Shown piece by piece: positions 5,962-54,078 of a DNA stretch of 64,000 nt (positions are counted from its first letter, which is position 1; each line of letters starts with the position of its first letter). Under the pieces are notes generated by a model, which had not been told where the DNA came from, searched no databases, and saw nothing but the letters and a program-made list of their open reading frames with translations. A program made the translations under genes and the position numbers. The stretch is from Astropecten irregularis (lineage: Eukaryota; Echinodermata; Asteroidea; Paxillosida; Astropectinidae): contig OZ020248.1 in the NCBI GenBank assembly GCA_963971285.1, positions 24,697,873 to 24,761,872 on the forward strand, given 5' to 3'.

Positions 5962-6683
5962 GCTCACTACTTGAAATCGCCTGTATCGTTTTTTTTTTAT
6001 GATGTGCTTTTGAAAGGCACTGGAACGGTAATTCACTTCGGTGATGAAATCTGAGCAAAATCCGTGTGGTTCAGCACATTACATGTATTTGCTTATAGTT
6101 TGAACCCCCCAGTATAATGTTTGTCACAATCAAAAGGAACCTGTAGTACAGCCCCGATGTTAGGGATGGTTTCACTTTGAGCTTTGAAAAATTAGATTTG
6201 TTGCAATAGTTGAAATGTTGTAATTCAAAACTTTGTACAATAATAAAATATACACAAAAATATTTATACACAAAATAACAATAAACCTTGAGGGTCTTAA
6301 ATACTCTACATAAATATTCTTATTTCGTCTGTGACCGCATACAAATAGCAAAATGTTTGATACTACAGAATATGCGAGAATTCTAGATCGAAAATATAGG
6401 TTAAAGTTGCTTTAGCTCTTACATTAATAATATAAATATTCAATAAGATAATACAATTAATATACACGTGACAATATATATTTATATACAAATATTTCAA
6501 ATGCGGTAGTTTTTCTTAATACAATTCACGACACCTTGAATATGAATATAATTTCTCTTGCTTCTACATTTCGAAGTGCACTTGTGAAGAAACACACGAT
6601 TATCCCCAATAATAATAACACAACATTAATATCAAATTTATTCTTCAACAACATGTAATAAAATGTAATCTCAGCGACTGCAC
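5962..6683. other. No gene seen
   Basis: AT-rich sequence without supported coding exons or clear repeats. Confidence 0.45.
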
Positions 6684-31023: not shown

Positions 31024-31190
31024 ACGAAAAGACTTGAGAAATACTGTGGCTGTTTTTCACTGTTTTCTCAAAAAGTGGGCAACGTATGGGAGTGAAATTT
31101 TCATAGACGACTGTTACTGTATCTGTCTTTGTATTTTTGCCCATGAATCTATATTTCTTTGATAAAAACCAAAGTGTGATATTGCCTTAA
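31024..31190 (+). mobile_element. TTAA-type MITE, family A, 3' half abutting the large transposon
   Basis: From AAAGACTTGAGAAATACTGT to CCAAAGTGTGATATTGCC this matches the right half of family A. Its closing TTAA (31187-31190) is at the same time the left target site of the Kolobok-type element. The left half is missing. Confidence 0.7.
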
Positions 31191-31645
31191 AGGGCAATTC
31201 CAGGCCAGAAATAACTAAACACATTTCAAATGAACACATCCTAACATATAGAATACACTGTATAATTATTTTCCTTACGTGTGGTAAATGGCAAAGGAGA
31301 CGATTTCATTGTAACTTTCCGCTATGCGTAAAGACAAAAGGGCGCAGCCATATTGTTTGAAAACCCCGCCACATCCGGGAAATTATGACGTAGCTTCTGC
31401 ACCTCGCAGTCCGGTGTTCTAGAACGATCGGGAAGACCACACGGTCATGTGTGCGTGCGTGTGTGTAGTGATGGTCACGCACCTAGACTCGTGTGAGGAA
31501 TGGTTCACTATGCACGATCTCGGCACCCGTCTATTCTGTCAAGTTGTGATTTACTATTTACACAAGCATACGCGACGATATTTGGCGATCTTTTGTGACC
31601 GATTTCCCTCATAGTTTTGGACAACATTCCTCTGTATGTTAAAGT

Positions 31646-32877
31646 ATGTCGATTGGGCCACTTCCGTATGATTTTGAGCCGACATTCACGGAAGAAGAAC
31701 TGCAAAATAGGTCTTCAATTGACGAAACAGAAACAGACATCGAGCTTCCGGGTACGACTACGAGCGCGAGTGAACAGGAGTCTCGTCGCGAAAACACAGA
31801 ATGGTGTCATTGTGAAAACTGCGCAGTAATGCCCATCGAGAAGGAATGCTTGTGTTGCCATGAAGTTGGAAAGCTAAACTGGCTGATGGAAGAAAACAGA
31901 TGTATTACATCTCATGAAGATTTTTCAGCTGTTTGCCTGAACAGTGCAGTTCTACGGGCTGCCCACATCATGAGATTGAACTCCCGTGGCCACGATAGTC
32001 AAGGCTTGCGAGAATTATCGAACCGGTATGTGAATAGGCCTAGCAAGATATATCACAGACACATGAATGACATGTCACAATAAACCTATGTCCACGTTTT
32101 TTATTCCATTGGTTCTTCTACCATTCTAACGAAAATTATTTTCAACATGTCCATTGCTTGTTGGGGCATAAGATGGGACTTTCTGTGTTTTGAAATACCC
32201 AAACATGTATCGTGTGTACATGTAAGTAGTTTCATTCATATTGTGAAACTAGTTAGCCCTAATTCATGGTAAGACTTTGCAGGGACGTGAGACTTCAGAT
32301 TTTTTTTCTTCAGATTTTAACTCAGAACTTCAGCTTTTTTATACGCCTGCTCTGTACAAAAGTATACATGTAGGAACTTTTTTAATTTCTGCTTTTTACT
32401 TGGTGTTTTCAGATATTTTTTTTTGTCCACTCACATCCCTTTGTGACTTTGAGAAAGATCATGCTAAGAGTAAGATGAAAATGTCAGGCCCTCCCGTACC
32501 CGAACTTTTTACAACATGTACAATAATACTAGTTCTGCAAATTTGGTAGGAATTCCTGGCATTACATTTTTGTTTTTGTTTGTTGTGGTGGTGGGCCACA
32601 TCATCATTGACTCGCATCCCCTGCCAACTCCAAAAACACTACATTTCATTTACACCCCACCAATTTCATGTATGTCTGCAGGTCTTTACGATACTCAGCA
32701 TATCGGATGTTTGTCAGTTGGTCGCATGGGCATCTAGGAAAGGGCATCCGACGGGTAATTCCTGCATGCGCTGTACTCGCCATACGGACAAACTACCCAG
32801 AAGAAGATGGGGTTTATATTGGCTTCCGTGAAGGGGATGATGGTGAAATTCTTCAAGACAGTGAAGTCTATGCATAA
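31646..32877 (+). CDS. Stand-alone P2X7-type intracellular (ballast) domain protein, 191 aa, two exons
   Basis: Exon 1 is 31646-32025 (donor CG|GTATGT) and exon 2 is 32682-32877 (acceptor TCTGCAG); the joint restores an Arg codon and gives SNRSLRYSAYRMFVSW. The first 50 residues are acidic and low-complexity. Then come WCHCENC, MPIEKECLCC and CITSHEDFSAVCLN, which are the zinc-binding cysteine cluster of the P2X7 receptor C-terminal domain. They are followed by the family's RYSAYRMFVSW, GKGIRRVIPACAVLAIR and PEEDGVYIGF motifs. In vertebrate P2X7 this domain holds zinc and guanine nucleotide below the channel. Here there is no channel part, transmembrane segment or signal peptide, so a soluble zinc protein is expected. 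It lies inside the Kolobok-type element, convergent with the transposase; its job for the element is unknown. Confidence 0.85.
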
Positions 32878-33881
32878 ATGTTTACACTTGTATAAACAGT
32901 TAATTTTATTGTATAAACACACTTAAATTTCATCTTATAGTGTCAAACTGTTTTTTTTTAATTCATCTAAAAATCATAGGGGAATTTCATCTGCAGTGTC
33001 AATACAGACTACAGTTGTTATTGAAAATAATGAAGCCTTCAAGCGCACACAATCTGTAGCAAACAAAATTACGTTCCGATGATTTTATTTCACAAAATTG
33101 AAATAGGCTTATCCTTCATGTAAGCAATGGCGATTGTTATTGTAGAACACGATTTAAATGTAAAAAAAAATCTGCAAGTATCCCTTTAAAACATACCAGT
33201 AATGCAAACATTTGTATTAATTCAAAGTCATGTGCATTTGAAGGTAAAATCATACAACTTGGGACTCAACTGTAAAATACAAAGAGAAACGTATTTTATG
33301 GAAATCCTGGTAGAGCATTGAATAGCATCGTTCATGACTTGTTTTCATTTGAATGTTTAATTCATGTCATGTACAGCGAAAACTTAGCAAAAAGAAGTGT
33401 CTTAATATATGACCTTATTTATATATGTGTGGTTGCTACAAATAATATTCTCGATGGTGACACTGACAGCATTTTCAATATAAACAGTACGCTTCCACAC
33501 TACACTAAACAACGGTTTTGATTTGGGACATTATCAATTCAGTACCATATCTTAAATCTATCAGCAATTTTTTTTTCTGTAATACAATTTGATTCATCGT
33601 GGAATTGTTTACAAAGGTTACATGAATGGACAAACTCTAATTAATCAAAGACGAATAGATATGTCATAGTGATGTTGAAACACTTGTGCGAAAATGGACA
33701 ACTGTTCTTTTTTTGTCTTGGCATTTTTGTTTCTACAAAAAGTCACATGCTTTAATTTACATATTACTAATTGCATAATATACATGTACTTCAGTTGAGT
33801 AAATGTAGTGTACAGAAAACAATAACAAAGCAAAACCTAAAAAGTTTCCTTTGCAGGGATTTACTTTGTTGAGACCTGTGT
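32878..33881. other. Spacer between the two convergent transposon genes
   Basis: AT-rich, no coding exon seen. It should hold the 3' ends and polyadenylation signals of both genes. Confidence 0.5.
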
Positions 33882-36800
33882 TCATTTCTTCACAAATCTG
33901 CTTTTTTCTGCATTTGCTATCAGAACATCCTTCGGAGGTCTAGGTATTGGAGCAATGTTTGCAGGCAGTTCAGGCACTGTTGGACCAGTCAGATTGATTT
34001 CACCCTGTTTTGCTTTTAGTACATCAGTCATTATGTCCCATATATATTCATATGATTTACCCTCCACAATTGGCTTTGAAATCCACATTTTGGTCAATTT
34101 GGAATACACGTGGCGGAATTTCTTAACATGCTCACATGTTCCATCATCATTTATTTTTTCACTTGTTTGCTCTTGTCGATTCAAATTGTTATTATGGTCT
34201 AGCACTGCCAACTGCAACCTGGCAAGCATCTGTGGGTAATCAAACTCCTGCCTTTTGGGACAGTACTTGAGAAGTAGGCTGTGAAAGACTTCAAGCTGCC
34301 CTGTGTGACAAGCTTGTGTCAGTTTCGGGAAGTCTCTCACGAGCCTCTTATCAAGCAGGACCTCTTGCACTGCTTTGTGTGGCTCTGAACCAGCCGATAA
34401 CCATTTTTTGGTTCTGGCTTCTTCAGGGGACAGAGGTTGATGGTCGCAGCAACTGACTCTTTCCCCATCCCATTGGTGAATATTTACAATGTGATGCAGA
34501 ATCGAGTGGATCTTTTCAGTCAAAATGTCTGCATCTTCATTGCAATGTTGGCAAGCGTACCATATTTGGTTGGATATGGATTTGATCCAATCAAACAATG
34601 GTTCATTGACTTTTCTCTTGGCTTTTGCAGTCAGTTTCTTCTTGATTGATTTTGTGAGGTGCCAAACATCATACTGGTGTGTTATTAGTGGGTACTGGTC
34701 CTTCATAAGCTTTGCTATTCCAGTATGCCTGTCTGTTGCAAGTCGATTCACTACTATATTCTTTGATTGGAGGTGATTAATAGCACAAATGCATCCAGCC
34801 TTTTCCATTGCATTGGCATTTGCCACCTCACTGACCTGCACCAAAGCCATAGCTAGAATTTCATGTGTAGTAGAATGCATCAAGGTATAGCTGCCATACT
34901 TTGCATTATATCCAGGGGAATCACATCTGCCATCTCCTGACACTTGTACAGATTTACCCTTGTACTTCTGATGGAGATTATCCATGTGCCGTAAATAATT
35001 TGTATTGACTGCTGGCACAAGAAGACTTCTTTGCATGTCATAATACGTGGTCTTGCCAAAAAACTGCAGGCCATATAAGTTTGCAAAATGGGAGATGTGG
35101 CCAAAAGTGTTTCCACTGAAAAGTATGGCAGCTGCACCAAGAACATTCCCCACTGGGGCTTGCCCTATAGTCGGCTGTGATGTCCACTTCATCACCTCGT
35201 GTCCTGCTGAACAGACAATTGTTGCTCGGACCATTGTGCCCACAAATGACTTTTGGACGCTGGCAACTGCACCATTACAAAAAGGGCATCTCAAAGCAAA
35301 CAAAAGTTTGTCCAGCATATCATCAAAAACAATGAACTTCTTATTTTTGCATAATTTTAATTCACTGACATCAGTGCTTACTTCGGATGAAGATCCTGAC
35401 GAATTGGATGAAATGTTTTCATCGATTTCATAATCTGAATCCCTTACATGACAGTCACTGTAATCATCGTCAGAATCTTCAGCATCACATTCAAGGTCAC
35501 TGTAATCATCTGACAATGGTTCACTTGCCTGTCCCTCTACAAACTTATCTGCACATTCTGAAACTTCAGATTCAAGATTTGTGTCCCTATCAATACAATA
35601 GGAATGATCCAAAAGTACTGCCTCCTTTGAAATACTTAATTTTAAATCTTGAAGGACATCTTCCTTGGACTTCTCTGTTTGTGTTTCTTGATGACACAAG
35701 TTCATGGAGACCACAGGGTTGGGCGTCCAATCTTTTAGTCCAAAATTTGGAGTAAAAGATTCATCCGTCTGGGAAGCGGCATCGCATCTTGCTGGTTGTT
35801 CTGTTATTTCCTGCACAAAAATACAAAAGATATTCTAAAATATCAAGTCAATGAAGATACAACCACAAATTTCCTACACACAATGCAGCACTCCCATTTT
35901 TGGCCTATCCACTTTCTGCTGAAAACCCACTGTTTTGGGGAGTTTTTTTTGGTTTTTTTGGGGAGGGGTGTCCTCTATTGTATTTGTAGGCCTATCTGTA
36001 CAAAACTGAACAATTTCATGTATTTCCATTTGCACACATGTAAATTCTGCAATATGTACAACTCGATGCATTCATTCCAAAGGGTTTTGTACCTTTCTGG
36101 GAAATACTCTTCGTCTTCTTTTCCTTCTGGAGGGACGACTCTTCGGTGACACAACCTCACATGGAGAGATATCAGAGTCTGACGACTGTATTAAGAAAGA
36201 AAAGAGAGGGGTCTACTTTTAATGAAATTCATGTGCAGGTTGTCTTAATAAGATATTAATCTGAGAATTCTCACTTTTGTTTATGTCAAGGAAAATTCTT
36301 GATTGACATATTCTGTACAGTCATGTACGTACAACATTCACACTCACCCGAGGAACGGGCATACTGGTACATGGATCTGGCTGATGCGAAGATGATGGCT
36401 GGTCATGTAACACAGCAGGCTGACTTGTGAGCAGCGTGTTCACCATCTAAAGTTAAGGGAATAAGACAGTTGACAGTTGTGAATATTGTTAATCATTTTT
36501 AAAATTAATTTCATTGGGAAAATCTCCGAAAATGCAGTGTGCAAATAAAGGCAACGTGCGTTAGGCCTATACTTATAAGTTATAGTTGTACTTTTTTTGT
36601 TGAAGTTAACTTGCACACCCGAGGCCTAATTTTAATTGTGTATCGATCGATTAAATCATGCATTCGTACACAAATAAATTGCACATTACATTGTATTTGT
36701 AAGAAGGTCCTAGGCCTACATTGAATTTTTACTTACATGTCTCTTATGGGCACTCGCCAGCCTCTTCTCAGTGGACTCCCGACGCTTAGCTTTTTCTCGA

Positions 36801-37093
36801 AAAGAAAAAATCGTTGGCACTGCATCCTCTCGAAGCTTCTTAGATCTTGGGTTATACCCCAGAAGAACAGCTTGGCGATTTTCTTCGAAACATTCTGGCT
36901 CGAAGTGGTCTTCGCAAACAACGAACACTTTGTTTGGCACAAACGTTTTGAAGTCGAACTTAGCGTTCTTGATATTATGAATCCACTTCTTACAAATCTC
37001 TGGACGTTTCTGAGGATCGGGAATTTGAAAAAAACTACGCCGTTCTCGGGGATTGGGTTTATTCGAGCACCCGAATGCTTGACAAATCGTCAT
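33882..37093 (-). CDS. THAP-domain Kolobok-type transposase, 825 aa, four exons
   Basis: Exons in transcript order: 37093-36737, 36446-36348, 36185-36093 and 35810-33882, all joined in phase 0. Residues 1-96 form a THAP DNA-binding domain: C4, C9, C60, H63, a conserved Trp at 37 and the closing AVPTIF. Exons 2-3 are a Ser/Pro linker and an Arg/Lys-rich patch (RRKRRRR), likely a nuclear signal. Exon 4 starts with an acidic Ser/Asp region, then a zinc ribbon (CPFC ... CSAGH), then the catalytic core: GDGRCDSPG (D476), TDRHTG (D543), YDVWH (the D-x-x-H motif, D564/H567) and LEVFHSLLLKYCPKR (E690), followed by LAVLDHNNN. The D-D-E order with DxxH and a THAP domain fits Kolobok. No stop or frameshift is seen. 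It could be an active transposase or a domesticated copy. Confidence 0.85.
36737..37093 (-). CDS. Exon 1 of the transposase: THAP zinc finger
   Basis: The ATG at 37093 opens 119 codons ending at CAT|GTAAGT. MTICQAFGCSNKP has the THAP opening Cys pair, VVCEDHFEPECF the Cys-His pair, and AVPTIF the conserved end. THAP domains bind specific DNA, in transposases the terminal or subterminal repeats. Confidence 0.9.
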
Positions 37094-37136
37094 CTTTCAC
37101 AAGCACTTTATTCAGCTAACATGTACCCGCTTCGTA

Positions 37137-37431
37137 TGGCCCAATTTCATGGAATCCGTTACGGCCTATTTTTGTGCTTACGGATACAGCGCGTGAAATC
37201 TTTCATGGAATCCGTATGCAAAACTCTCGTTTAGCGAATAATTTCTAGGGTAACGGTGATCATTTTCTGAGTGCTAGCAGGCATGTCGTATGCATTTTGC
37301 ACAAATTCATTGCTTACCGTTACCAAAAAGGAAACTCTTCCGTGAAATACATTAACCGAACAAAAAAAAAGTCTGCAAAGGTAAGCGGAGAAAGTTTGCT
37401 AACGGTAACGGATTCCATGAAATTGGCCAAA
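37137..37431. mobile_element. MITE inserted in the transposase gene's 5' region
   Basis: Ends are TGGCCCAATTTCATGGAATC (then CGTTACGG) and, inverted, CGGTAACGGATTCCATGAAA (then TTGGCCA). The element is about 295 bp and lies 44 bp before the transposase ATG. The outer bases resemble those of the element at 9845-10069. Another internal copy of CATGGAATCCGTA lies near 37205. Confidence 0.8.
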
Positions 37432-37858
37432 GATCGTGCACTTCTTAGAAACTGTATAGTCAGATAACCAGTCTTCCGCAGTCCACGCCTATGGTAAGAC
37501 GGAGCGGGTATACAGGACACACGACTACCGACCACCGACCACCGACCACGGCCGGCCTTGCGGTCAAGTCACCCACGCACACGCTGTATATTACACAGAC
37601 CCCGCATCGTGTTCAGTGTACAACGAACACGATGTCGCGGCTATGAGTTGAGGTGCAGACACTACGTCACAAATCACCGGATGTTGCTGGCTTCGTCTTC
37701 AACAGGGCGGCCCACACGATGGAATAAAATCGTTATCAAAAACCTTTTTTTGTGAAATACCTGGGTGCGTTTAACAATTATTGATAATCTTTCCTGCATG
37801 AAATTTCACGCTCTTTTAGATGAAATTAGTCTCGGAAACGGGTGGCCTTTCCCTTTAA

Positions 37859-38735
37859 AAGTCACGAATTTTCGAAATAAACGGATTTATCCCCCAGACT
37901 CAGCTTTTTAAATCATGATTCTGTCCAGTTTGTCCCTCTTTACAGTGACAATATACATATTGCAATAACAAAAATGTAAAAGGATCGAAACGCGTCAGGC
38001 ACTCCTAACTCTAAGCAAAAAATGTAAAATATATTTTTAGTACAAAGTTGAAATAGGCACACTGTAAAAATCTTGTCTTTTAAAAGGATTTTTTTTCTCT
38101 GAATCTCAAACAACACGTGGTGACAGAGCCGACGTTAATATTGCAATATGCATATAGCATTTTCTTTGGCGTATAACAAACAAAATATGCCGTGCTCAAA
38201 ATGAAGCGGTAAAATTATGTCAAACAACAAGAACTATAGGTCGGTAAATATTTTTTGTGAAAGCACAGTTTATTCTGCTTGGTAAAATATGAAGTCTTTC
38301 AGTACAGCATTTTCCTTTATCTTTTTTTCACGAACAATAGACTAATAATAAGTGAGTTGCATAAATTTGCAATAACGGTGCACTAGACGTGTCCTTGATG
38401 GCGAAGGATGGGAAGGGTTCTCACTCACAATTACGCGCGGCGAAACTTGCTCTGCGCCGCATGATTAACTTTGTTTACATATGTTTTGATGCGGTTGTCA
38501 CAGCAACGCGTAGTTACGACTATACGATGCATGTGTACACTAAGCTTAATTAGATAAGTTGTTAATTTTTCATGGTTTCTGAAAGTCGTACGTGGTCGGA
38601 GACACAACTGGAAAGTGAATAATTCATGCATGCCTTTTGAACCGTTTCCACGGTAATGATGACGACGCGAGAGAGTGGGGTGAAGTTATTATTTTGGAAA
38701 CCCTGGAATAAGGAAAGCAAACAAATAAAACTGGT
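37859..38735. other. No gene seen
   Basis: No supported coding exon. The phrase GAAACGCGTCA followed by CTCCTAACT near 37988 recurs at 63936, so a short repeat is shared with the far end of the window. Confidence 0.45.
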
Positions 38736-39690
38736 GGGTTGGGTTGGGTTGGGTTGGTTTGGCTTGGGATGGGATGGGACGGGATGGGATGGGATGGGAT
38801 GGGATGGGATGGGATGGGATGGGATGGGATGGGATGGGATGGGATGGGATGGGATGGGATGGGATGGGATGGGATGGGATGGGATGGGATGGGATGGGAT
38901 GGGACGGGGTGGGATGGGATGGGATGGGATGGGATGGGATGGGATGGGATGGGATGGGATGGGATGGGATGGGATGGGATGGGATGGGATGGGATGGGAT
39001 GGGATGGGATGGGATGGGATGGGATGGGATGGGATGGGATGGGACGGGGTGGGATGGGATGGGATGGGGTGGGGTGGGATGGGATGGGATGGGATGGGAT
39101 GAGATGGGATGGGATGGGATGGGATGGGATGGGATGGGATGGGATGGGATGGGATGGGATGGGATGGGATGGGATGGGATGGAGTGGGATGGGATGGGAT
39201 GGGATGGGATGGGATGGGATGGGATGGGGTGGGATGGGATGGGATGGGATGGGATGGGATGGGATGGGATGGGATGGGATGGGATGGGATGGGATGGAGT
39301 GGGATGGGATGGGATGGGATGGGATGGGATGGGATGGGATGGGATGGGATGGGATGGGATGGGATGGGATGGGATGGGATGGGATGGGATGGAGTGGGAT
39401 GGGATGGGATGGGATGGGATGGGATGGGATGGGATGGGATGGGGTGGGATGGGATGGGATGGGATGGGGTGGGATGGGCTGTGGGATGGGATGGGATGGG
39501 ATGGGATGGGATGGGGTGGGATGGGATGGGATGGGATGGGGTGGGTTGGGCTGTGGGCTGGGTTGGCTTGTCTAGGCTTGGCGTGGGCTTGGCTGGGCTT
39601 GGCTGGGCTGGGCCGGGCTGGGCCGGGCTGGGCTGGACCGGGCTTGGCTGGGCTGAGCTGGGCTGGGCTGGGCTGGGTAATTGGCTTGGG
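38736..39690. repeat. (GGGAT)n pentanucleotide array
   Basis: About 800 bp of nearly perfect GGGAT units is flanked on the left by GGGTT and on the right by GGGCT-type variants. Few units carry changes (GGGAC, GGAGT, GGGGT). Every plus-strand frame and one minus-strand frame stay open through it, giving Trp/Asp/Gly/Met or His/Pro/Ile/Ser repeats that are not genes. The G-runs every 5 nt favour G-quadruplexes. Confidence 0.95.
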
Positions 39691-41335
39691 TTGTTAAACG
39701 TTTCCTCCCGTCCTTGAGACATGATATTTCAAGTACATTCAATCCGTTTGTCTGTTGCGTTTCATGGTTGCTCACCTCAACTCAAATTGTTGCATCTAGT
39801 TTCCAATTGTCTATTGAATTTTATTCACGAAGGGGGTCCTTTTTAATGTTAGCTTTTGTAATAGATTATGTGTTATGCTTTTATTTAATATTATGTGCTA
39901 ACTTGCTGCATGTATCCTTTCACATGATATTTTGTAGACAATGAATTAACATTTTTTTAAATGCAGTGTCTTAATGATCAATTTGTTAATTCGCGATATT
40001 TTATTGCCAAGATCAAAATGCCATATCAATGCCATATCAAAATGTCATAAAATAAATGCCAAATGGCTCATTGGCATATCACATGAGCATAAATAAGAGT
40101 TTTCACATGCAAACCAGTAGGGCCTGTGGAGAAGGCGAAGTGTGCAATAATGGACCCGCTGATATATTCAAGTCTGCCCTGCTTATCACTTATATCAGCA
40201 TAAATACGTCAAGCCCGGCCCAGTCCATCTTTGAAGCAGACAATGTGTCGAGAAGAAGCTTTTGAGAATACACAGCATATCAATGATATCATCAAAATAT
40301 CATCATCAACAATAAATTGCAATGTCATGTTACCATGGAAACGCTGCTCATGCCCGCTCATTGAAACGTACAGAATGCACGGAAATGGATCTTTCAGTGT
40401 GTTATATAAAACTTCACATCACCATCCAGGCTCAAGTGCGTAGCCAGAAATAGATTCAGCTCGAATGAAAACGACGACGTGTCAATTACCCGAAAAACAA
40501 CAAAAGACCACTTGTATAATTGGGGCTAAAAGTCACGTACTGCCGCATTGCAACAACCCGTGAGGAATTTAATTAAAGGCAGACTGACGCAGGTAAAACA
40601 AAGGAGGTATAGTAGTTTATGCACACTGTACCTAAATTATATCCCACGGTGTATAATTTTGCAATTGTATATGTGCACATGGAATGCGATCTCGCACCGA
40701 TGCTCTTAAAACCTTAAAATTCGGAGACAAAGGAGCAAGACGCGTTTACTCTGTATACCAATATACAACCACTTGAGCCATTCTATGTAATAGGGCCTAA
40801 TTTCAACGTATCATAATAATGTTTTGTCCAATATGTTTATAAAACAGTTAATTTGCTTAATCTAAACTGCGCAAGGCAATCAAAATATCTCTCGCTCTAA
40901 TACAAAGTACGGCAATTTGTTAACTTAAAGAAAATTGTGGCAGATGAGAATAAGATGGCCATTGTGTTCATTACGGATACATTGTAGTCTTGATTCATGC
41001 GGGAAAAACAACTAAATATGCCTATCACAGTCATGAACGTTTTACACGAAGATCGTATAGTCAGCGTTCAATCCTTTCAATTATTTTTTTTAAGGTGATT
41101 TGTCGCAGATTACTAGTCCTCTAAATGTGAACGCAGTTCGAAGGAATTTCAAACATTTTTATAAACTAGAATTTTCATATTTACATTTTAGAGCAAACGA
41201 GCGGCGCTCTCAGACAGCAGTTGAGGAAATCGCTAAATTTACTAAATTAAAGGACTTCTAATTTTCAGTTTCTTCTCATAACTTGTTTTTTGCTGATTAG
41301 ATATTTAGATCTCAGTCAGGGTTGTCAACCAATCT
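39691..41335. other. No gene seen
   Basis: AT-rich sequence with short chance frames only. Confidence 0.45.
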
Positions 41336-53415: not shown

Positions 53416-53970
53416 TTACTTCTTGTCCTGCTTTTTGCCTTTCTTTGAAGTCTTCTTCTTGGGCGTTGCCTTCTTGGTCTTGGGCGCCTTTTTAGCAGCA
53501 GGTGCGGCTTTCTTGGCTGCGGGCTTCTGGGCCTTCTTGGCTGCCGTCTTCTTCTTAGGTTTGCTCTTTTTGGCTGGAGACTTGGCCTTCTTGGGAGACT
53601 TGGGCGTGGCAGACTTTTTAGCAGGTGCGGGCTTCTTGACCTTCTTGACCTTCTTGGCGGGCTTCTTGGCAGGCTTTTTGGCTTCGTTCACACGGAAGCT
53701 CCCAGACGCGCCACTTCCTTTGGTGTGGCCGAGCGCCCCCTTTTTCTCCATCCTCTTCAGAGCAAGGGTGATGCGGGTCTCGCATTTCTCGGGGACTTTG
53801 TTGTTGCTTTTGATGTACTTCACGATAGCCTGACGAGAAGATCCCTTCTTGTCATTCAGTGCCTTGATGGCTTGGACGATCATGACATCATAGGACGGAT
53901 GATCACTTGGGGTCTTCTTCACTGTCTTTTTCGGCGTCTTTGCCTGTTTAGGTTCAGCTGGAGCGGCCAT
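53416..53970 (-). CDS. Linker histone, H1.0/H5-like, 184 aa, intronless
   Basis: It binds linker DNA at the nucleosome and compacts chromatin. The globular H15 domain spans about residues 22-95: SDHPSYDVMIVQAIKAL, GSSRQAIVKYIKSNNKV and the closing KGSGASGSFRV. A Lys/Ala/Pro-rich tail of about 90 residues follows, with SPKK/SPAKK phosphorylation-type motifs near 125-135. The SDHPSY start of the domain is typical of the H1.0/H5 replacement type rather than of replication-dependent H1. The gene stands alone, not in a histone cluster, and lacks the histone 3' stem-loop, which fits a polyadenylated replacement histone. The start is the only Met, in AAAATGGCC context on the minus strand. Confidence 0.95.
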   Translation of the reverse strand: MAAPAEPKQAKTPKKTVKKTPSDHPSYDVMIVQAIKALNDKKGSSRQAIVKYIKSNNKVPEKCETRITLALKRMEKKGALGHTKGSGASGSFRVNEAKKPAKKPAKKVKKVKKPAPAKKSATPKSPKKAKSPAKKSKPKKKTAAKKAQKPAAKKAAPAAKKAPKTKKATPKKKTSKKGKKQDKK

Positions 53971-54078
53971 TTTTGTTTGAAGAGGTTGCCGGCAAGAGAG
54001 GGCAGAATTGTCCTTCAGATCTCAATATCCAGTTTGTCTTTCAATAATAATAGCACGACCGCTGGTGACGCTATCGCG

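Follow-up and report, generated by a model that had tools for sequence, protein, structure and literature searches.

A complete and recently mobile transposon of 6664 bp is located in the 64,000-nucleotide window of the Astropecten irregularis genome analysed here (the window is C11:24697873-24761872 of the 476 Mb host genome). With high confidence the element is an intact Kolobok of the Kol0 type, and KolX, the second of its two convergent genes, coding for a free P2X7 intracellular (ballast) domain, is a constrained gene of the element's own. The coordinates of all features are listed in Table 1. Inverted words at both ends, noticed already in the initial annotation, are present: TTAAAGGG was found at 31187 and CCCTTTAA at 37851, and we read them as TTAA followed by an element of the form AGGG...CCCT. 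Six copies of these 8-base words in the window allow 15 pairings, so that one may consider two unrelated genes enclosed by chance copies of TTAAAGGG. This explanation is refuted: the exact ends are common to seven deletion copies and a full copy on C97, and the subterminal inverted pair described below is unique. The pairing of 31187 with 37851 had a score of 26 beyond the 8-mer, the remaining 14 pairings scored 9-11. A short KolX-only element ending at CCCTTTAA at 33182 was also rejected, the left-end likeness stopping there at the 8-mer (score 9).

Copies elsewhere in the genome bear out the claim of the initial annotation that a Kolobok transposon carrying a ballast gene has moved. Both genes were present in two further elements, as a search for a second copy was to establish. 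The full copy at C97:1956-9547 has TTAA on both sides and flanks unlike those of the window element; its KolX (191 aa) and its transposase (825 aa) are open and differ from the window proteins by four amino acids each. This copy also differs from the window element by two additional inserts, one of about 180 bp and one of about 770 bp. A diverged family is represented by C16:5054820-5062121, with TTAA at both ends and the same convergent gene order. Its KolX of 195 aa shares 120 of 187 aligned residues with the window KolX as well as the intron phase and the aligned cysteines; the transposases are 77 % (494 aa) and 80 % (127 aa) identical in two aligned stretches, and for residues 61-642 of the last exon an identity of 71 % was obtained.

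Seven deletion copies (L011-L017, 1175-1195 bp) join bases 1-802 of the element to bases 6278-6664 at one common junction. Their first and last 16 bases are those of the window element, and TTAA is present on both sides of all seven. They are 97.4-98.0 % like the window element ends and mutually 98.9-99.8 % alike, and thus spread recently. All seven share a stop at codon 11 of KolX, so they must have been moved by proteins made elsewhere; for the same reason a truncated KolX acting as repressor was rejected as a role of these copies. The immediate 30-base flanks all differ, and in the 500-base flanks pieces of dispersed repeats are common to the window element, L011 and L017 and also to L015 and L017. 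The flanks of L017, joined with one TTAA, align to uninterrupted sequence next to L015 in which TTAA occurs only once at this position, and on this alignment the sequence qualifies as a related empty site for the L017 insertion. For the window insertion no clean empty site was obtained from the left flank, which is repeat-like. This flank (31040-31186) itself belongs to a dispersed repeat, and related sequence lies close to four further ballast loci (L011, L017, L035 and the overlapping L031/L037).

Kolobok transposons are defined by 5'-RR...YY-3' termini and a transposase with DDE residues, a C/DxxH motif and a zinc finger (PMC9587614); THAP domains, DDE residues, AG ends and TTAA sites were described in PMC6004289. 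The termini are AGGG...CCCT in the window element and the deletion copies and AGGA...CCCT in the C16 element, and TTAA target sites flank the window, C97 and C16 elements and all seven deletion copies. The initial annotation had described two intact convergent spliced genes, one for a THAP transposase and one for a free P2X7 domain, and the predicted gene models agree with it: both are convergent and open. The transposase model codes for 825 aa in four minus-strand exons with GT-AG splice sites. Its N-terminus is a THAP domain (PF05485, E=3.4e-16) with the C2CH residues at 4-63 and the AVPTIF box at 91-96. By motif, rather than by structure, the catalytic residues were assigned to D476, D543 and E690, with DVWH at 564-567 and a CxxC..CxxH zinc finger at 603-640. 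In Pfam, the catalytic part had only a sub-threshold MULE match (E=0.0088), and no further significant domain was found in the four frames scanned; no CxxC was seen by eye between the first two D. A search of the PDB with the transposase gave no match, and an AlphaFold prediction of the last exon, made with no alignment, had a mean pLDDT of 34. A piggyBac origin, which would likewise imply TTAA sites, was rejected: no piggyBac match appeared in Pfam up to E=1, and the THAP and DxxH features are present. Scans of viral and of bacterial/archaeal contigs yielded no relatives of the transposase, as expected of an animal element.

KolX is predicted to have 191 aa in two plus-strand exons, again with an open frame and GT-AG splice sites. 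The exons match Pfam P2RX7_C (PF20478) with E-values of 4.7e-9 and 1.1e-11, the spliced frame with 1.9e-24, and the protein aligns with residues 470-592 of a P2X7 chain (6u9v, E=2.5e-8). Seven of the nine cysteines in this P2X7 stretch (477, 479, 482, 498, 499, 506, 572) align with KolX cysteines 54, 56, 59, 70, 71, 86 and 156; in our reading they would correspond to the zinc-binding cysteines of the literature. A P2X7 receptor gene was rejected, KolX being without a P2X domain. The 11 P2X_receptor matches of the genome are all on C10, where none of the ballast loci lies. Channel and ballast domain are separate in this host genome. A scan of viral contigs revealed no relatives of KolX.

The subterminal inverted block, recognized initially as 34 bp with 28 identical positions, is actually longer: 44 nt, 80 % complementary, at a depth of 171-215 from the left and 161-205 from the right end. 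Its local alignment score of 26 was reached neither by 1000 dinucleotide shuffles, which scored 17 at most, nor by 1000 random window pairs, with a highest score of 20. The window and C16 elements have the core TGACGTAGNNTCTGCACCTC at all four ends. A genome scan for exact matches to the 18-base subterminal motif retrieved 21 sites in 476 Mb, of which 20 form inverted pairs in ten elements, namely the window, C97 and C16 elements and the seven deletion copies. The 21st is on C23, within a 367-bp left-end fragment lacking TTAA, and the reversed pattern, used as control, had no match in the genome. The motif is an obvious candidate for the site bound by the transposase, and likely serves as such. 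Most likely the THAP domain would bind the paired sites, which lie about 160-215 bp inward of either end, and the DDE core would cut beside TTAA and reinsert the element at another TTAA in a cut-and-paste manner.

Across the genome, 35 protein and 32 Pfam matches merged into 34 ballast loci, a lower bound; Kolobok-like transposase matches numbered 69, also a lower bound as 69 of 106 candidates were scored. Of the 34 ballast loci, 11 had a transposase match no more than 8 kb away, convergent in eight. On C1 this applied to three of six loci, against an average of 0.09 and never more than 2 when placements were randomized 2000 times. Eight downstream stretches were scanned in addition: C1:13221220 had a convergent transposase (L076, E=1.6e-7), a locus on C30 counted already was positive, and the other six had none at E <= 1e-3. 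This raised the ballast loci with a convergent Kolobok-like transposase downstream to nine of 34. Sixteen loci, the seven deletion copies included, lie demonstrably within Kolobok elements. Fourteen had no match within 8 kb in the lower-bound transposase list, and three had only a non-convergent transposase within 8 kb, all in a transposase-rich stretch of C11. In this stretch four of 11 ballast loci had a transposase (one convergent) against 1.8 expected by chance, and 8.65 % of 2000 placements reached four. Given the fourteen loci without match, the three non-convergent ones and the lower-bound list, the data cannot attribute every stand-alone ballast gene to a transposon. The proposal that the domain spreads with Kolobok elements, and that ballast loci of this genome have Kolobok genes as neighbors, thus stands for about half of the loci and may or may not apply to the remainder. 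The C11 stretch itself (19.0-22.2 Mb, outside the window) comprises 3.2 Mb or about 0.7 % of the genome and holds 51 of the 69 transposase matches, many with stops, and 11 of the 34 ballast loci. It is a transposon graveyard, possibly a pericentromeric or piRNA-type cluster.

The initial annotation had considered the ballast gene a passenger, and this wording is doubtful. KolX of the window and C16 elements had a pN of 0.221 and a pS of 0.762 in Nei-Gojobori counts, the transposase core 0.133 and 0.748 and the THAP exon 0.113 and 0.689; as pS is saturated, the dN/dS ratio is only bounded. From these counts KolX looks to be kept under constraint much like the transposase. According to Kojima & Bao (2022, PMC9587614), Kol0 Kolobok families typically have KolX as their second gene. 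Because of the few amino-acid relative to silent changes and this regular occurrence, KolX is better described as an accessory gene. That a Kolobok took up a ballast gene of its host and transports it with no gain for itself would agree with the movement of seven short copies in which the KolX frame is interrupted at codon 11. Such a true passenger is very improbable, since the convergent order of KolX and transposase recurs at the window, C97, C16 and C30, at four C1 loci and at C11:19.41 Mb, and since both the excess of silent changes and the report of KolX as typical of the Kol0 lineage speak against it. Several points weigh against an intact Kol0 element with KolX as its own constrained gene. 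KolX is dispensable in cis, as the stop shared by the deletion copies indicates, and its constraint was estimated from one family pair with saturated pS. In the C16 element the transposase was resolved only outside exons 2-3 and the N-terminal portion of the last exon. Seventeen of the 34 ballast loci are without a demonstrated element, and a locus on C9 is linked only via 2.69 kb in common with C30. The Kol0 placement was made by features.

As to its function, KolX would most likely be a small zinc-structured protein within the element's own gene set that assists transposition in trans. We favor such a putative helper role with moderate confidence. Alternatively, KolX may regulate its own element, as a repressor of transposition or an antagonist of silencing. 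The small size of KolX, its richness in cysteine, the lack of any known catalytic domain in Pfam and its conservation beside the transposase would suit a regulator; this conservation is equally compatible with a helper, and we regard self-regulation as an unlikely, though serious, possibility.

The ballast domain is present across animals (Rump et al. 2020, PMC7016195), and Kojima & Bao (PMC9587614), who matched KolX to the C-terminal region of P2X7 with its ballast fold and seven conserved cysteines, derive P2X7 from a P2X4-like gene that fused with KolX. A transposon as source of the P2X7 tail is therefore a plausible and, since 2022, a published idea, which seems to have been little noticed: in the literature searched, Kolobok and P2X7 are mentioned together in PMC9587614 and PMC9319628, and KolX in a single paper. 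The terms 'transpos', 'Kolobok' and 'THAP' are absent from the main text of PMC7016195, and 'P2X' from that of PMC6004289. PMC7016195 mentions an Ixodes protein in which a 'TAHP' domain is joined to the ballast domain; in our own reading a gene model spanning a Kolobok element would fit this fusion. New in the present analysis is a transposase-linked KolX with a single exon that, by its sequence matches, is much closer to P2X7 than the window KolX. This 182-aa open frame on C30 has the ballast domain in one exon; a convergent match to a Kolobok-like transposase, degraded in part, lies at a distance of 2.3 kb. It matched the P2X7 chain 6u9v with E=4.6e-23, compared with 2.5e-8 for the window KolX, and its best P2X7 match had 9e-25. 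A 2.69-kb repeat, 99.5 % identical, is common to C30 (L022 279-2966) and C9 (L023 275-2964), and the C9 copy has TTAAAGG at its left boundary. The repeat contains the P2X7-like single-exon ballast frame and, upstream of it, a small cysteine-rich frame. One genome hence hosts two KolX types, the single-exon type being clearly nearer to P2X7. As the P2X7 ballast domain was placed in exon 13 (Rump et al., PMC7016195), the single-exon type, among the elements examined, would be the better donor model for the P2X7 tail.

The P-element transposase requires GTP (PMC7776569), and the P2X7 ballast domain binds guanine nucleotides (PMC9859053). By analogy, KolX might be a trans-acting guanine-nucleotide (GTP/GDP) and zinc cofactor of Kolobok transposition, fulfilling as a separate protein the task of the GTP-binding domain within the P-element transposase; in this case P2X7 would have domesticated a transposition cofactor, derived from the single-exon type. 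We consider this a long shot. Of the five GDP contacts of Rump et al., the window KolX retains R546 and R578 as its residues R130 and R162, and the loss of the other three (H547 to Y, R574 to V, K583 to E) weakens the proposal. A567 and L569 of P2X7, named in PMC9859053, are R and I in KolX. The C30 frame, read by eye, retains R546, H547 and R578. The window element is a complete, recently mobile example: both genes are open, the ends are exactly defined, copies shortened by deletion and one related empty site are available, and a putative binding site is at hand, so that the function of KolX becomes testable. Such tests would also bear on the original purpose of the P2X7 ballast domain.

Directly upstream of the transposase a 286-bp stretch with perfect 22-bp inverted ends probably represents a nested short insert; the additional insert of about 770 bp in the C97 copy adjoins this position. 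Outside the element, the window contains an open linker histone H1/H5 frame on the minus strand (53416-54021, PF00538, E=3.4e-26) and about 1.1 kb of simple repeat (38562-39728) in which several frames of either strand stay open for 153-388 aa.

Table 1 Features of the Kolobok element, in window coordinates
Feature	Position	Strand	Remark
Kolobok element, 6664 bp, 5'-AGGG...CCCT-3'	31191-37854		ends fixed by seven deletion copies and the C97 copy, which have the same start and end bases
Left TTAA target-site duplication	31187-31190		TTAA likewise flanks copies elsewhere
Right TTAA target-site duplication	37855-37858		
Left subterminal inverted block, core TGACGTAGNNTCTGCACCTC at 31386-31405	31362-31405	+	candidate transposase binding site
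Right subterminal inverted block, core at 37650-37669	37650-37693	-	
KolX (P2X7 ballast-domain gene), exon 1	31646-32025	+	Pfam; cysteines aligned with P2X7
KolX, exon 2, includes stop	32682-32877	+	Pfam
Transposase exon 1, THAP domain (C2CH, AVPTIF box)	37093-36737	-	
Transposase exon 2	36446-36348	-	
Transposase exon 3	36185-36093	-	
Transposase exon 4, catalytic residues	35810-33882	-	
286-bp stretch, perfect 22-bp inverted ends	37141-37426		probably a nested short insert

Among known systems, the P element and THAP9 share with the window element a transposase of THAP and DDE type (PMC7776569), and the C/DxxH motif occurs in both P and Kolobok (PMC9587614); they differ in that a single protein has the GTP-binding domain built in and uses GTP as cofactor (PMC7776569). 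The P2X7 ballast domain (PDB 6u9v and others) is alike over residues 470-592 including the seven cysteines, while KolX is without the channel part. The Xenopus XKol elements (PMC6004289) have in common the THAP domain with C2CH, the AVPTIF box, DDE residues, AG ends and TTAA sites. Their full-length copies measure 6.8-13.9 kb, and their zinc finger is H2CH instead of the CxxC..CxxH of the window element. KolobokP, E, D and 5 encode a second (CCHC) finger and accessory nucleases or a helicase, which the Kol0 lineage lacks according to its description. With this lineage (type Kolobok-1_XT, PMC9587614) the window element shares the TTAA sites, the RR...YY termini, the DDE, C/DxxH and zinc finger motifs and a KolX with ballast fold and conserved cysteines, seven of them aligned in a protein that matches PF20478 with E=1.9e-24. 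Since the link between Kolobok and P2X7 was published in 2022 (PMC9587614), the locus is a rediscovery and a well-documented new example. It would represent a new Kol0 family, in which an intron interrupts the KolX domain.

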